DNA from: an uncultured Gammaproteobacteria bacterium | Lineage (GTDB): Bacteria > Pseudomonadota > Gammaproteobacteria > UBA4575 | DNA length: 64,000 bases | Reading direction: 5' to 3' | Assembly (NCBI GenBank): GCA_951812785.1 | Contig: OX638335.1 | Coordinates: 199,630-263,629, forward strand | Part shown: positions 19,636 to 48,859 of the stretch, piece after piece | How the letters are laid out: each line of letters begins with the position of its first letter | How positions within the stretch are numbered: the first letter of the stretch is position 1 | Notes under the pieces: model-generated | The model's input: the letters and a program-made list of their open reading frames with translations, nothing else | Databases searched by the model: none | Told to the model about the DNA's origin: nothing | Program-made: the position numbers and the translations under genes

Positions 19636-20676
19636 GTGGATATATCACAGCTGTTGGCTTTCTCTGTTAAGAATGGAGCCTCAGATTTACATCTTTCCGC
19701 TGGTGTTTCGCCGATGATCCGAGTCGACGGAGATTTGCGAAGAATTAATGTTCCGGTGATGGCTCATAAGCAAGTTCATTCCATGGTTTATGACATCATG
19801 AATGACAAGCAACGTAAAGATTATGAAGAGTTCTTGGAGGCGGACTTCTCGTTTGAAATTCCTGGTTTAGCGCGATTCCGTGTTAATGCGTTTAATCAAA
19901 GTCGTGGTGCTGGAGCAGTTTTTAGAACTATTCCAACAAATATTCTCACGCTTGAAGAATTAGATTGCCCAAGAATATTTGCTGATATTTCAACTTATCC
20001 CCGTGGGTTAGTGTTGGTGACCGGTCCAACGGGATCTGGTAAGTCAACCACTTTGGCTGCCATGATTAATCATAAAAATGAAAATGAATATGGGCATATT
20101 CTTACTATTGAAGATCCGATCGAATTTATACACGCGAGCAAGAAAAGTTTGCTTAACCAGCGTGAAGTGTATCGCGATACATTAGGGTTTAATGAAGCGC
20201 TTAGATCAGCATTGCGTGAAGATCCAGATACTATATTGGTCGGTGAATTGCGAGACCTGGAAACTATTCGGTTAGCATTGACTGCAGCGGAAACAGGGCA
20301 CTTGGTTTTTGGTACTTTGCACACTAGTTCTGCAGCAAAAACCATCGACAGAATAGTTGATGTATTTCCTGCGGCTGAAAAAGATATGGTGCGTTCTATA
20401 TTGTCAGAATCACTGCAAGCCGTCATCTCACAGACATTGTGTAGGAAAATTGGTGGTGGCCGAATTGCTGCACACGAAATCATGTTGAGTTCTCCTACGA
20501 TTCGAAATTTGATTCGTGAGGATAAAGTGGCGCAAATGTATTCCTCAATACAGACTAGTCAAAATATGGGTATGCAAACACTTGACCAATGTCTAAAGGA
20601 AGTGTACTCAAAAGGCTTAATTAGCAAAGACGAGGCACGTCGCCGTGCGGCTAATAAAGACTTTTTAATTAAATAA
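19636..20676 (+). CDS. pilT: Type IV pilus retraction ATPase PilT
   Basis: A 346-residue secretion-type ATPase with intact motifs: ASDLHLSAG at the N-terminus, Walker A GPTGSGKST (130-138), Asp box ILTIEDPIEFIH, LREDPDTILVGELRDLETI (Walker B) and TLHTSSAAKTIDR (His box). The start is GTG 19636, with AAAGGAG five bases upstream. It powers pilus retraction. Its usual neighbour pilU survives only as a stub right after it, and pilG further on is also a relic. So either pili are still retracted by PilT alone, or this gene is a late survivor of a dying system. Confidence 0.95.
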   Translation: MDISQLLAFSVKNGASDLHLSAGVSPMIRVDGDLRRINVPVMAHKQVHSMVYDIMNDKQRKDYEEFLEADFSFEIPGLARFRVNAFNQSRGAGAVFRTIPTNILTLEELDCPRIFADISTYPRGLVLVTGPTGSGKSTTLAAMINHKNENEYGHILTIEDPIEFIHASKKSLLNQREVYRDTLGFNEALRSALREDPDTILVGELRDLETIRLALTAAETGHLVFGTLHTSSAAKTIDRIVDVFPAAEKDMVRSILSESLQAVISQTLCRKIGGGRIAAHEIMLSSPTIRNLIREDKVAQMYSSIQTSQNMGMQTLDQCLKEVYSKGLISKDEARRRAANKDFLIK

Positions 20677-20719
20677 GAGATAGTGCAGAAAGGTGGATCT
20701 TATTTGTTTTTCATTATAG

Positions 20720-20830
20720 GTGCGCTTGGCTTCATTGGTATCAATGATTGAACATCGTAGCAGCAATGTGCAAAGTGGATATATTCTCACCATTGAATAT
20801 CCTATCGAAGATGAAGATTTTTTGATTCGG
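20720..20830 (+). pseudogene. pilU: pilU remnant
   Basis: About 35 codons directly after pilT read RLASLVSMIEHRSSNV, then QSGYILTIEYPIEDED. They align with the segment after Walker A and the Asp box of PilT/PilU ATPases (in PilT here: TLAAMINHKNENE and GHILTIEDPIEF). The Asp in the box is changed to Tyr (IEYPIE). No Walker A, Walker B or rest of the gene is present, and the pyrK end lies just 40 bases on. Position after pilT is where pilU lies in Pseudomonas. It is a deletion remnant. Confidence 0.75.
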
Positions 20831-20868
20831 TTAAATCTATATTTAGCGACGATCAGCTGTCTAAGAAA

Positions 20869-21741
20869 TTATAGAGGGAAAACTGTGTTAGCATCAAATA
20901 TAGGACCATCCACGCATACGCGCTTCATCTGACGTTGGCCAGTATTATTAATAGTTTCAACTGTGCAGCCTGCACACCCTCCAACTGCACAAGCCATATA
21001 TTCTTCTAGAGATAATTGGCAAGCTAATGAGAATTGTTGGCTAACTTTGGCCACTGCTTTTAGCATTGCTGTCGGACCGCATGCAAAAATCTCAATGTCT
21101 GAACGTTCTTGGTTGTTTAGGCTTTCTAGCCATATTGTCGCTAGCTCATGGATGTAACCATCAAAGCATCCAGGGTAATTTTGTTTGCTGGTTAATCTGG
21201 AAGGGATATTTAAATCTTCCAGTAACGTCATTGAAGCAATGGTATTGCTAGGCATTGAGTCTATTAAAATTTTTGAAGGTTGCGTTTTGAATGGAAAGGG
21301 GATTTCTGAACCCATGATTACCATGGGTGTTATGTTGTTTTTCTTTTTCAGTTGCTCTGCGAAAAACAATATAGGCGGAATGCCAACGCCACCACCGAGT
21401 AATAATGGCCGCTCAGTGTTTTCAGATGGAGTGAAAGCGTTGCCTATCGGGCCCATACAATGCAGTGCATCAGCTGGTTTTATTTTAGTAAGTTGCTCGG
21501 TTCCTGATCCCACTACCTTGTATAAGATTTCAATCCAGCCTCCCTCTCTTGAACTGCGTAAAACTGAAAAAGGGCGTTTCAAACTATATTTTTCATGGCT
21601 ACAACTTAAGTGGATAAGGTTGCCTGGCTGAACGGTTTTGGCGCATTCAGGAGTGTGTAAGCGTAGTAAATACTGTGCTGCAGGTAACGCATCATGTGCG
21701 AGTACGCGCGCATTTTCAGCAAATATTGAAGCGTTTGTCAT
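20869..21741 (-). CDS. pyrK: PyrK-like dihydroorotate dehydrogenase electron transfer subunit
   Basis: A 290-residue ferredoxin-reductase-type flavoprotein. The FAD-binding motif is KRPFSVLRSS. The NAD-binding region has LLGGGVGIPPILFFAEQLKK and FACGPTAMLKAVAK. The C-terminal Cys cluster, ACAVGGCAGCTVE with a later Cys in KRVCVDG, would hold a [2Fe-2S] centre. In class 1B systems PyrK passes electrons from dihydroorotate to NAD. No pyrD lies nearby. Its start overlaps the pyrC' stop (ATGA), so it is the last gene of the pyrimidine operon. It could serve a distant pyrD or another redox partner. Confidence 0.8.
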   Translation of the reverse strand: MTNASIFAENARVLAHDALPAAQYLLRLHTPECAKTVQPGNLIHLSCSHEKYSLKRPFSVLRSSREGGWIEILYKVVGSGTEQLTKIKPADALHCMGPIGNAFTPSENTERPLLLGGGVGIPPILFFAEQLKKKNNITPMVIMGSEIPFPFKTQPSKILIDSMPSNTIASMTLLEDLNIPSRLTSKQNYPGCFDGYIHELATIWLESLNNQERSDIEIFACGPTAMLKAVAKVSQQFSLACQLSLEEYMACAVGGCAGCTVETINNTGQRQMKRVCVDGPIFDANTVFPL

Positions 21742-25476: not shown

Positions 25477-26350
25477 TTATTTGGTACTTAATTTGCTATC
25501 ACTGTGATAAATCCAGGCGCGAGTTATCATTAATTGATCGTATTGCCCACGCATTCCCGCTGGGAACTGTTTATAAGGTGCTGCCAGACGTACAACTTTA
25601 ATGGCAGCGGCATCTAATAATCTTTCTCCAGATTTCTGCTGAATTATAGAAGAAATTACTGAGCCGTCATGATTGATGAGCACACTTAATATTTAAGGTG
25701 CCAGAAAGTTTCTGCTGTTTAGCCTGGTGGGGATAATTGATATTACCGATGATTTCAACTTTCTGTATCCAGTCTTTAATATATTTAGCTTCAATTGCAG
25801 ATTTAGCACTTAAAGTATCAATGTAATTAATGCGCGGGCGTTTTGCGTAAAGTTGTTTTTCTCGGCTTAGTTCAGAAACTAGCTGTGCGATATTATGCTG
25901 ATTTTTGCGTAGTTCTGTTTGATCAAGCTTAGAACTTTCTTCACTGGTGGCGCGGCGAGAAAACTTTTTATCATCGGGATCATTTTGATGAATAATCATT
26001 TCGTTTTCGGCGACATAAGAAGTATTTTCTGTGATTTCAACGCTACTAGTTTGATTGTTACCTTGAAATACTTTTTTAGCTACTGCAGGTGAAGTGGGGC
26101 GAGCATCAAAATCGACACTGCCGCTTTGTGCCTGATTATGCTCTGCAATCACCTTTGCATCTTCAGGGGCATTTTCGTTTTGAGTTTTTGTTAGAATAAC
26201 TTCAATCGTGGATGGGGGTGCCGAGTGGTTTTTTATCAACTCAAATCCAAGCCCTAAAATTAGCAGTGCATGAAAAGCAATAGCTAACAACAGAGTAAAA
26301 CTTATTCTGTCGTTTGAAGATACTTTTGGTGTGGCAATGGCTGGAGTCAT
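25477..26350 (-). pseudogene. tonB3: TonB3-like energy transducer, frameshifted
   Basis: Frame one begins with a TM anchor (ISFTLLLAIAFHALLILGLG) and a long periplasmic linker, and reaches KQQKLSGTL, where the TonB C-terminal domain starts. It then stops after NIKCAHQS. Frame two resumes LSVLINHDGSVISSIIQ and has LLDAAAIKVVRLAAPYKQFP to the end, the matching C-terminal half. The shift of one base lies near 25686-25696. Genes at this spot (algH-tonB-gshB) in Pseudomonas are TonB3-like and linked to twitching motility. The linker has few Pro repeats, as in that subgroup. Sequencing error is not excluded. Confidence 0.8.
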
Positions 26351-27334: not shown

Positions 27335-27588
27335 ACCCTGATCCTCTATTAGCATATTTGCTGTTATCGGCTTAGTTTGTTCTAGGACTACCTTGTGTCT
27401 GCTTCAGTACCGCGTGCATATAAACAGATAAAACCTATCTTTGTTTGCATCGTGGCTAGTTTGTTGGCTGATTAAATATAAACGATTTAAGCATAACAGC
27501 TCTGAAGAAAGAAATTGGGAGCACAAAATGTAGGAAACAGTTCATTATACGAACTCGAACAGTCAAATTCTGTAGATTTGTCATCTCT

Positions 27589-27826
27589 GTAATAGCGATG
27601 ATTATCGATGAAGACAAGGCAATTAGAAAATCTGTAGAAAGATTGTTGAGTAAAGACGAGTGTGAAGTATTGACCGCTGAAGATGGTTTCGAGGTATTAG
27701 CGATTATTGCTGTTAATAAGCCAGACATTATTTTTGTAGACATCATGATGCCTAAATTGGATATTTTATCAAATGTGCACCTTGATTAAAAATAATCGCC
27801 AGACACGGCTGACATTCCGACGTTGA
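27589..27826 (+). pseudogene. pilG: pilG remnant (CheY-like response regulator)
   Basis: The first frame reads VIAMIIDEDKAIRKSVERLL and then KPDIIFVDIMMPKLD, the acidic pocket and phospho-Asp of a PilG-type receiver. After ILSNVHLD it stops; a shifted frame resumes CTLIKNNRQTRLTF (PilG has CALIKNN there) and then ends. The N-terminal start is lost, and nothing matches the Lys-containing C-terminal third. PilG lies divergent from gshB in Pseudomonas, exactly as here. The following pilH-pilI-pilJ-chpA genes are missing and replaced by rsmE-ahcY. The flanks (27356-27588 and 27827-27880) hold nothing I can assign. Confidence 0.8.
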
Positions 27827-27880: not shown

Positions 27881-28573
27881 CTAATTAAAATCACCCCAGC
27901 GAGATTGGCACAACGTCAATGCTGAAATTACAGCAGTTTCTAAACGTAAAATTCTTGGTCCGATTTTAATCGGTGCAAACCCCTCATTTTGAGCTTGGAG
28001 TATTTCGTTCTGGTCAAATCCTCCCTCAGGCCCAATGGCGCATATGCAGTTAGAGGTTGATGTGTCGGTGTAAGAAAATGTATTTTCATTGGCCATGGGC
28101 GAGGCGATTAATTTAATCGCTTTGCTGGGTGAATTGTTTATAGCCACATTGCATACAATGGGTTGCTTGATGCTAGGAATCATTGCTCTTCCCGATTGCT
28201 CGCAAGCGCTTTCAATGACTGAACGCCAATGATCCATTTTCTTATCTAAGCGATTCGCGGCAACATTGATGTTAACTTGAGAACTAATAAATGGAGTGAT
28301 TGCGTTAACGCCCAACTCGGTCGCTTTTTGTAAACACCAATCCATTTTATCTGCGCGGCACAAAGGTTGAAGTAAATGAATAGATAATAAAGATTCGTTA
28401 TGGATAGATTGTTGACTTTCAATATCTACAGAAACATTTTTCTTGGAAAGTTCGCTAATAATTGAGTAGTAGTCGTTTCCATCTCCGTTGAATATGCTTA
28501 CTGCTTTGGCCTCTAGGCCGATGCTGGTGGAGGCCTGTAATCTGTGTTGTGTATAAATTCTTGGAATGCGCAA
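27881..28573 (-). CDS. rsmE: 16S rRNA m3U1498 methyltransferase RsmE, with a short PUA domain
   Basis: A 230-residue SPOUT enzyme. The catalytic part is complete: CRADKMDWCLQKATELGV, SACEQSGRA, CAIGPEGGFDQNEI and the knot end IGPRILRLETAVISALTL. The N-terminal PUA-like part is shortened: MRIPRIYTQHRL and IGLEAKAVSIFNGDG are joined directly, while relatives have about 15 more residues (HLxRVLRLxxGD) between them. The frame is kept, so this is an in-frame deletion that may weaken rRNA binding. It is separated from ahcY by a terminator. Confidence 0.85.
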   Translation of the reverse strand: MRIPRIYTQHRLQASTSIGLEAKAVSIFNGDGNDYYSIISELSKKNVSVDIESQQSIHNESLLSIHLLQPLCRADKMDWCLQKATELGVNAITPFISSQVNINVAANRLDKKMDHWRSVIESACEQSGRAMIPSIKQPIVCNVAINNSPSKAIKLIASPMANENTFSYTDTSTSNCICAIGPEGGFDQNEILQAQNEGFAPIKIGPRILRLETAVISALTLCQSRWGDFN

Positions 28574-40412: not shown

Positions 40413-40740
40413 ATGAACAAATATGCAGCGGAATTGATAGGTACATTTTGGTTGGCCTTGGGTGGATGCGGTAGCGCAGTATTAGCGGCAGGATTCCCAG
40501 ATGTAGGTATCGGATTATTAGGGGTGTCTTTAGCATTTGGCTTGACAGTACTTACAATTGCCTATGCGATTGGCCATATTTCAGGCTGCCATTTGAATCC
40601 CGCAGTATCAATCGGTCTTTGGGCCGGCGGCGTGCTTTATGTCATCGCTAGTGGAACCGCTGGATTCGATGTTAGCGCCGGATTTGCTTCCAATGGCTTT
40701 GCTGAGCATTCGCCAAGTGGGTATTCAATTGCAAGTAGTG
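40413..40740 (+). pseudogene. aqpZ: aqpZ (aquaporin Z) remnant
   Basis: The N-terminal half matches aquaporin [31 protein letters not shown]-like helices, and the first pore motif [12 protein letters not shown]. An in-frame deletion of about 25 residues then joins it to [20 protein letters not shown] and [11 protein letters not shown], after which a TAA ends it. The second NPA half of the channel is gone. A slyD tail follows immediately in another frame. The remnant cannot form a water channel. Confidence 0.88.
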
Positions 40741-40968
40741 GATAAAGCTGCCTTTCAAGGTGTTGAGTCTTTAGAAGTAGGTATGGGGTTTGAGGCAGAA
40801 GGCCCGAATGGCGAAGTGCAGCGAGTGACTATCGCTAAAATTGAAGGGGACCAAGTCACAGTTGATGGCAACCACCCACTGGCGGGAGTTACTCTAACTT
40901 TTGATGTAAAAATTATCAGTGTGCGCGATGCGACAGAAGGAGAAATGTCACACGGACACGTTCATTAA
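40736..40968 (+). pseudogene. slyD: slyD C-terminal remnant (FKBP-type prolyl isomerase)
   Basis: The frame reads [20 protein letters not shown], then DGNHPLAGVTLTFDVKI and RDATEGEMSHGHVH. This is the second half of SlyD, including the end of the isomerase domain and the first His of the metal-binding tail. The N-terminal FKBP half is missing, and no start codon belongs to it. The junction with the aqpZ stub lies near 40727-40740. A single deletion between two neighbouring genes is the simplest explanation. Confidence 0.88.
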
Positions 40969-47629: not shown

Positions 47630-48154
47630 TTAGTTAGCAAAGAATGCATAAGATATAAATATTGTGGTGGTTATTCCCGCGGCATCGGCGAGTAAACTGC
47701 AAGTCATAGCGTAGCGTATTTTTGTAATACCTACCGCACCACAATAAACGGCTAACACATAAAACGTTGTTTCAGTGCTGCCTTGCATGACAGCAGCTAC
47801 TTTGGCTGGGAACGAGTCTGCCCCCCGTGTTTGCATTACTTCTAACATTGCTGCACGTGCGCCGCTTCCGCTGAAAGGCTTCATTAGTGCGGTAGGTAGC
47901 GCTTCTATGAATCCAGTATCTATATGTAATGCGTGTAATCCCGAGCTGATAACAGCTAGAAAACCAGTCAGTATTCCACTTGCGCGCAATAAAGCGATTG
48001 CTAGTAACATAGCGATTAAATAAGGGATTAACTTGATCGCAGTATCAAAACCTTGTTTGGCGCCGTCAATGAAAGCGTCATAAACAGCTACTTTTTTTAG
48101 CCATCCTGCAATTAAAAATAAACTAATGGTGGCGAACAAAATAAAGTTACGCAA
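47630..48154 (-). CDS. spmB: SpmB-like nucleoside recognition (Gate) domain protein
   Basis: A 174-residue membrane protein with about five hydrophobic helices: GAKQGFDTAIKLIPYLIAML, ALPTALMKPFSGSGARAAML and MQGSTETTFYVLAVYCGAVG. It is the SpmB half of the SpmA/SpmB pair known from spore maturation but widespread in non-spore formers, where the role is unknown. It overlaps the end of spmA by 8 bases. With spmA frameshifted, its partner may be absent. Confidence 0.88.
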   Translation of the reverse strand: MRNFILFATISLFLIAGWLKKVAVYDAFIDGAKQGFDTAIKLIPYLIAMLLAIALLRASGILTGFLAVISSGLHALHIDTGFIEALPTALMKPFSGSGARAAMLEVMQTRGADSFPAKVAAVMQGSTETTFYVLAVYCGAVGITKIRYAMTCSLLADAAGITTTIFISYAFFAN

Positions 48155-48859
48155 GTAATTGTGCTTGTTCGCTCATTTCATGCTTGGGCAATGATAAAAA
48201 ATATGCTGTCAATAAAATTGGAATTACACTGAAAGCAAATAAATAGCTAAGAACAGTCTTGTTCAGTAAAGGTAGTTTTTGTATATAAGCTACGCTGAGC
48301 AGACCGACAAGGGTGGATGCAAATGTTGATATTAATATTGGAATGAATACTTCAGTGGGATGAGATGCGCCTTGCTGAGCACGAAATAAAAATACCGTAA
48401 TAGGCAATACAGTGATAGACGAAGTGTTGAGTACTAGAAAAAGAATTTGTGCGTTTGATAATGTATCGGTCTTATTGTTTAAGCCTTGTCAGTCATAGCT
48501 TTAATGCCTAGAGGAGTGGCCGCATTGTCTAAGCCAAGTACATTCGCTCCCATGTTCATAGTCATTGAAGCAATGCTTGGATGATTAGCGGGTATCTCTG
48601 GCATTAATTTGCGAAACAAAGGCATGAGTAGCCTAGCAATAAATTTTGCTAGACCGGCTTGCTCGGCAATTCTAAAAAAACCTAACCAAACAGCCATTAA
48701 ACCAATTAAGCTAATAGCAATTTCTACGCTTAACTTTGCGGTATTAAATACTGCCTCAATTGTTTGCGAGAAAATATCCGCATTGTTGAAAAAGATTAGT
48801 TGTATCAGGCAAGCAAAAAAAGAAAAGACAATACATCCTGACCAAAACCAGCCCAGCAT
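48147..48859 (-). pseudogene. spmA: SpmA-like nucleoside recognition protein, frameshifted
   Basis: The first frame reads MLGWFWSGCIVFSFFACLI to MNMGANVLGLDNAATPLGIK and stops after AMTDKA. The correct frame resumes LNNKTDTLSNAQILFLVL, then SSITVLPITVFLFRAQQGAS and on to the end. One missing base near 48481 (GCTTAAAC where GCTTTAAAC would read through) explains the shift. The rest is well conserved, so a recent mutation or sequencing error are both possible. The protein would have about 237 residues. Confidence 0.82.

Follow-up and report, generated by a model that had tools for sequence, protein, structure and literature searches.

A probable pseudogene relic of a tandem PilT-family ATPase array behind pilT in an uncultured gammaproteobacterium

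The stretch of 64,000 nucleotides analysed here (the window, which lies in a single contig of 2,158,385 bases, or 2.16 Mb) carries a pilT gene followed directly by a short gene remnant, which raises the question of which gene left this piece behind and whether it still encodes anything. We regard it, with high confidence, as a pseudogene relic of a pilT-pilU-pilU2 array (pilU2 being our own label for the third gene of the array) within a wider decay of the type IV pilus, most likely functionless now.

A gene remnant directly behind pilT

The original prediction of a pilU stub directly after an intact pilT pointed to the right place: pilT is open, and an Asp-box stub at the locus of pilU starts 55 bases past its stop codon (20674-20676). 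About 30 residues had been likened to the Asp-box region of PilT-type ATPases, and a whole-genome protein search with the PilU2 of a relative recovers this similarity, 20729-20809 aligning over 26 residues with 77% identity (E 0.003) to the part of a PilT-family ATPase that starts just past Walker A and ends at the Asp box. Taken alone, this E value would be modest, and position adds support; the same search gives a weak hit at 1,109,225 (E 0.0185). At the DNA level, the stub scores 47 against the third array gene of the relative G003, the best of 200 shuffles reaching 17, and blastn against the loci of ten relatives yields E 8e-16 over 77 bases. The proposed replacement of the key Asp by Tyr is also confirmed, since 20732-20809 reads SLVSMIEHRSSNVQSGYILTIEYPIE in the forward frame, with Tyr in place of the Asp-box Asp. 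Related scraps extend from approximately 20684-20689 to 20874, about 190 bases, and the remnant is larger than first described. The features from pilT to its neighbour, and one remnant further downstream, are as follows.

19636..20676, + strand: pilT, open, 346 aa, GTG start, TIGR01420 at 489 bits
20677..20688, + strand: pilT-pilU spacer remnant, possibly pilU from 20684 on
20689..20728, + strand: scrap 1, pilU2 codons ~12-26 (SDLFFTTGAP region); bases to 20696-20701 may be pilU codons ~18-23
20729..20805, + strand: scrap 2 (Asp-box stub), codons ~138-162 of pilU2, starting just past Walker A and reaching the Asp box, which has Tyr for Asp
20806..20874, + strand: scrap 3, C-terminal tail of pilU2 (~codon 424 onwards), FFDSVKSIFSDDQLSKKL followed by the stop
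20869..21741, - strand: convergent neighbour, open, 290 aa
27512..27814, + strand: pilG-like response-regulator remnant, three pieces in changing frames covering residues ~2-101 of 149, without the 3' end

A functional PilT/PilU ATPase has Walker A, Asp box, Walker B and His box in one open frame. In the remnant, the Walker A core, Walker B and the His box fall within deleted stretches, the Asp box is changed and the frame is broken, which looks like ordinary gene decay; the remnant is most likely a relic, and a truncated but working ATPase is less likely. Scrap 3 alone reaches E 4.5 in the whole-genome protein search with PilU2. A reading of 20700-20729 as a broken Walker A was rejected, as the alignments show the N-terminal SDLFFTTGAP region there. 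An open frame of 70 aa with a GTG start (20720-20932) could instead be a new gene of small size, or the stub could have a regulatory role, but the 70-aa sequence is accounted for by the scraps plus the antisense of the neighbour's 3' end, and we find this extremely improbable. Profile scans of this frame returned no Pfam or NCBIfam match because it is too short and partly out of frame. The convergent neighbour itself is presumably a dihydroorotate dehydrogenase electron-transfer-subunit-like (pyrK-like) gene, and the corresponding gene also lies behind pilU2 in the loci L033-L036 of four relatives.

The third array gene as source of the scraps

The window's PilT has matches at E 0.001 in 33 of 38 genomes, its own included, and we compared 90 loci: those of ten relatives and the best 80 of at least 588. 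Three tandem PilT-family genes (pilT, pilU and a third) are present in nine of the ten relatives' loci and two in the tenth (G001, on a 7.7-kb contig). Over all 90 loci, some on contigs that end early, there are exactly three PilT-family frames of at least 250 aa in 47, two in 39, one in 3 and four in a single locus (three in tandem plus one distant), so that a third gene behind pilU is frequent among these gammaproteobacterial loci. In a tree of 101 proteins from 40 of these loci, array gene 2 falls into one clade of 40 members (support 0.974) together with the genes at the PilU position in Pseudomonas, Halopseudomonas and Marinobacter. The 21 third genes included make up a clade of their own (support 0.813), the sister group of the PilU clade. 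Genes 2 and 3 of G003 both pass TIGR01420 and both match solved PilU and PilT structures. In this family, the third gene (for instance L034:6335-7669, behind pilU) encodes 440-450 aa; at other loci, its length is mostly near 350-390 aa. We know of no role for a PilT-family gene in this position.

We scored the remnant block by block at the DNA level against pilU and pilU2 of L033, L034, L035 and L036, together with shuffles. For the Asp-box block, pilU2 scores 36, 47, 37 and 31, respectively, and pilU 16, 19, 19 and 16, with shuffles up to 17. For the tail block, the values are 38, 37, 22 and 15 for pilU2 and 11, 11, 10 and 11 for pilU; shuffles against pilU2 reach 16, 18, 15 and 15, the L036 score of 15 thus not exceeding its own. 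PilU is not the best paralogue for 20729-20874, pilU2 being ahead for the Asp-box block in all four relatives and clearly for the tail in three of them. Scraps 2 and 3 belong to pilU2: gene 3 is their best match, its own C-terminal tail included. In the whole-genome protein searches, the PilU query misses the stub and finds only pilT and pilB, and the PilU2 query finds the stub, its other matches being pilT, pilB (32%) and the weak hit mentioned above; with these queries, the rest of the 2.16 Mb contig yielded neither pilU nor pilU2.

The predicted identity of the stub as pilU therefore needs amendment. A degraded retraction-ATPase gene does lie at the pilU locus, but the reported piece is pilU2 (31-47 versus 16-19), and the suggested protein match to PilU did not materialize. 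Synteny with relatives that keep pilU likewise answers in two parts, pilU being indeed behind pilT but the third array gene supplying most of the remnant. An annotation as 'pilU fragment' would be wrong for the reported piece; from these comparisons, the remnant derives mostly from the second of two deleted neighbours, pilU2, and not from pilU. A complete pilU elsewhere, with the stub explained as a pilT duplication, had been named as one case against the prediction, and neither part of it was found. The duplication was rejected, as pilT of the window itself reaches 8, 23 and 12 for blocks one to three, below pilU2 of three relatives on each (18-23, 36-47 and 22-38); on the Asp-box block it scores above pilU (16-19).

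A gapped DNA alignment that did not permit long jumps yielded scattered small blocks; in its place we used the block-wise scores above and a gap-jump alignment at several jump penalties (three tried). With the stiffest one, against L034 (the locus of G003), 20650-20688 corresponds to the end of pilT and the spacer (36/39), 20689-20728 to pilU2 codons 12-26 (33/40), 20729-20805 to codons 138-162 (63/74) and 20806-20937 to codon 424, the stop and on into the downstream gene (109/132); L033 gives an identical layout. The path is collinear, and 1234, 335 and 786 bases are missing relative to L034, about 2.36 kb in all, with only about 190 bases left from the approximately 1.33 kb of pilU2. The last junction falls where seven bases are common to CCTATTGA, the Asp-box codons of L034, and GCTATTGA, its C-terminal codons, a trace expected from a deletion between short repeats.

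Whether any base of pilU persists varies with the relative used for comparison. In the first block (20677-20731), pilU2 scores 23, 23, 18 and 16 and pilU 20, 20, 22 and 16 in L033-L036, and the two genes are not separated. In the three-penalty run (the right-hand end of which was anchored at a fixed distance, giving a last segment that was poor for L035, 63/109, and shorter for L034, and of which the left part alone was used), pilU received 18 bases (20684-20701) with L035 at every penalty, 14 bases with L034 at two of the three and 7 bases with L033 at one. L035 also puts the 8 bases 20676-20683 at another place in pilU, which we take as spurious. A switch from pilU to pilU2 within this block fits eight of nine informative sites (permutation p 0.07). 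Judging from these alignments, pilU may be gone or may be left as about 7-18 bases (20684-20701), with roughly even chances. That the stub as a whole is a remnant of pilU proper would agree with its position directly behind pilT, with these 7-18 bases and with the first block in L035 (22 versus 18) and, as a tie, in L036 (16 versus 16). Nevertheless, pilU2 is ahead for that same block in L033 and L034 (23 versus 20) and for 20729-20809 and the tail in L033, L034 and L035 (the L036 tail, 15 versus 11, not exceeding its shuffles), and the PilU query misses the stub, which largely refutes this origin for 20729-20874 and makes it highly unlikely overall.

The same alignments bear on a possible assembly or sequencing artefact, in which the ATPase array was collapsed or misread. 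Tandem paralogues can collapse in assembly, and several of the broken genes carry single frame changes, but the scraps differ by 15-22% from L033 and L034, like diverged DNA, the two or three deletions are separate with their flanks in place, and of 20 relatives' genes compared over 16-31 kb of the window (frames of at least 140 aa plus pilG and the CheW-like gene), 14 have full-length counterparts there. Such an artefact is exceedingly doubtful as the source of the remnant; sequencing errors may account for some of the pilus-gene frameshifts but hardly for the long deletions.

State of pilT and of the other pilus genes

The window's pilT is a member of its family by both profile (TIGR01420, 489 bits against a cut-off of 319) and core motifs, found at 130, 157, 201 and 226, with motif names partly presumed by us and partly after PMC6762196. 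It is 93-95% identical to that of G002-G004, and its GTG start is also used in four relatives checked. Read by eye, its end shows an apparent 2-base deletion that turns DDF-stop into DFLIK-stop. In three-point comparisons, the window lineage has a branch dN of 0.026 for pilT, compared with 0.009 in G003 or 0.006 in G002, ratios of 2.7 and 4.7; we used branch dN and give no omega because dS approaches or reaches saturation and leaves many NG86 and YN00 values undefined. The corresponding ratios are 0.9 for aroK, 1.0 for aroB and 1.1 for dgt as housekeeping genes, 0.6-1.4 for six neighbours (proC, yggS, the pyrK-like gene, pyrC, pyrB and pyrR), 1.8-3.4 for pilM (based on 187 of 353 codons), pilN, pilO, pilP, pilB and pilC, and 1.0 for pilQ and pilD. 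Acceleration thus affects most, not all, of the pilus genes tested. As its absolute dN is low, pilT was constrained for most of the branch.

In an alignment of 91 PilT proteins, up to two gaps allowed, the window's PilT departs at three (H179Y, M255I and A288T) of the 139 columns invariant in the other 90. L033-L036 have no such departures, one sequence has 4 and two others 3, and the median is 0. A288T changes the opening residue of the AIRNLIRE motif, which reads TIRNLIRE at 288 here and has Ala in the 90 other PilTs. PMC6762196 describes this motif as a conserved feature of PilT that PilU lacks and that may help to couple PilT to PilU, and PilU as acting only through PilT. Since PilU acts in this way, loss of PilU with PilT kept is in principle functionally compatible.

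The rest of the type IV pilus is broken in several places. Families of the relatives' proteins used in this comparison were assigned by profile (PilM, PilN, PilO, PilP, A24 peptidase, T2SSF, Response_reg, TonB_C, PilW and GspH) or by genome search (PilQ, T2SSF and PilB), and the names pilG, fimU, pilV, pilX, pilE, aroK, aroB and dgt and those of the window neighbours are presumed from gene order and sequence. pilM is in three pieces with two frame changes, pilN retains 162 of 189 residues, and pilC misses about 50 residues and has a frame change. In pilQ, residues 1-103 are unmatched and the frame changes near residue 240; its secretin core remains in one 486-aa frame (523 bits, cut-off 284), and the G001 frame is comparably short (473 aa). 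pilO, pilP, pilD and one pilin gene are open, as is pilB, with in-frame losses near its N-terminus (823 bits, cut-off 676); pilD, pilO and pilP of the window genome gave no NCBIfam match at E 1e-5. In the minor-pilin operon (L150:3217-10983), pilW and pilY1 are split, pilV and pilX are open, and fimU and pilE are shorter than in G002, a weak verdict given the 28-56% identity to the G002 proteins used as yardstick. A second pilY1-like copy (contig 49.4-50.5 kb) consists of two frames, one with a stop; the PilY1 pieces pass the Pfam cut-off. The remnant at 27512-27814, presumably of pilG by position and sequence, is a single frame in G002 and G003, where the protein of a relative is a Response_reg member; the CheW-like gene beside pilG in G003 has no match among those listed in the window. 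A chemoreceptor is represented by one 65-aa scrap with a stop, below the cut-off; of three congeners searched, G002 and G003 have matches over it and G001 none. Relatives differ too: the G003 draft gave no PilQ match.

Because pilC and pilM are broken and pilQ is damaged, there is probably no pilus left to retract, and an open pilT is not evidence of a working pilus in this organism. As several pilus genes are open, pilB and the pilQ core score above their cut-offs and pilT dN is low, a residual or altered pilus is also possible on the sequence evidence.

A proposed course of decay

Appendage systems in reducing genomes undergo multi-gene decay with scattered frameshifts and deletions, and the locus follows this general pattern. 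Loss of selection followed by deletion would explain it. Deletions would have taken out pilU entirely or almost so, along with the beginning of pilU2, and afterwards codons ~27-137 and ~163-423 of pilU2; the remaining scraps would have gathered point changes and frameshifts, and pilT, still open, would be less constrained amid a wider breakdown of the pilus in this lineage. The comparisons above show which gene scraps 2 and 3 come from, the stretches absent against relatives and the broken pilus genes; we infer the number and order of these deletions, loss of selection as their cause and a pilT without a pilus to retract. Alternatively, PilT may have been kept for a pilus-independent job in a pilus-less cell, the loss of PilU and PilU2 having freed the AIRNLIRE motif; we consider this very unlikely, and one genome cannot separate it from slow undirected decay.

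PilU, a PilT-dependent retraction ATPase (PMC6762196), occupies the same locus behind pilT and belongs to the same PilT/PilU family (TIGR01420), but pilU is all but absent here and the reported piece comes from the next paralogue. It is to the third PilT-family gene of many Gammaproteobacteria that the scraps match, at codons ~12-26, 138-162 and the tail. A third PilT-type retraction paralogue is already known elsewhere, namely Neisseria PilT2 (PMC10790696). The literature searched yielded no description of a retained pilT with a decayed pilus, nor of 'PilU2'; PMC4943182 describes a pilus that is present.

Several other genes of the window also look altered. A TonB-like gene at 25477-26350 is divided by a frameshift into 25667-26350 and 25477-25683, and is a single 290-aa frame in G002 and G003. 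The gene at 27881-28573, presumably RsmE-like, seems by visual comparison with G003 to lack some 15 codons close to its N-terminus, the frame being kept. The two short neighbouring open frames at 47630-48859 resemble fragments of what we take to be a nucleoside-recognition-domain gene, possibly a pseudogene, and 40413-40745 looks like a shortened aquaporin, another possible pseudogene.
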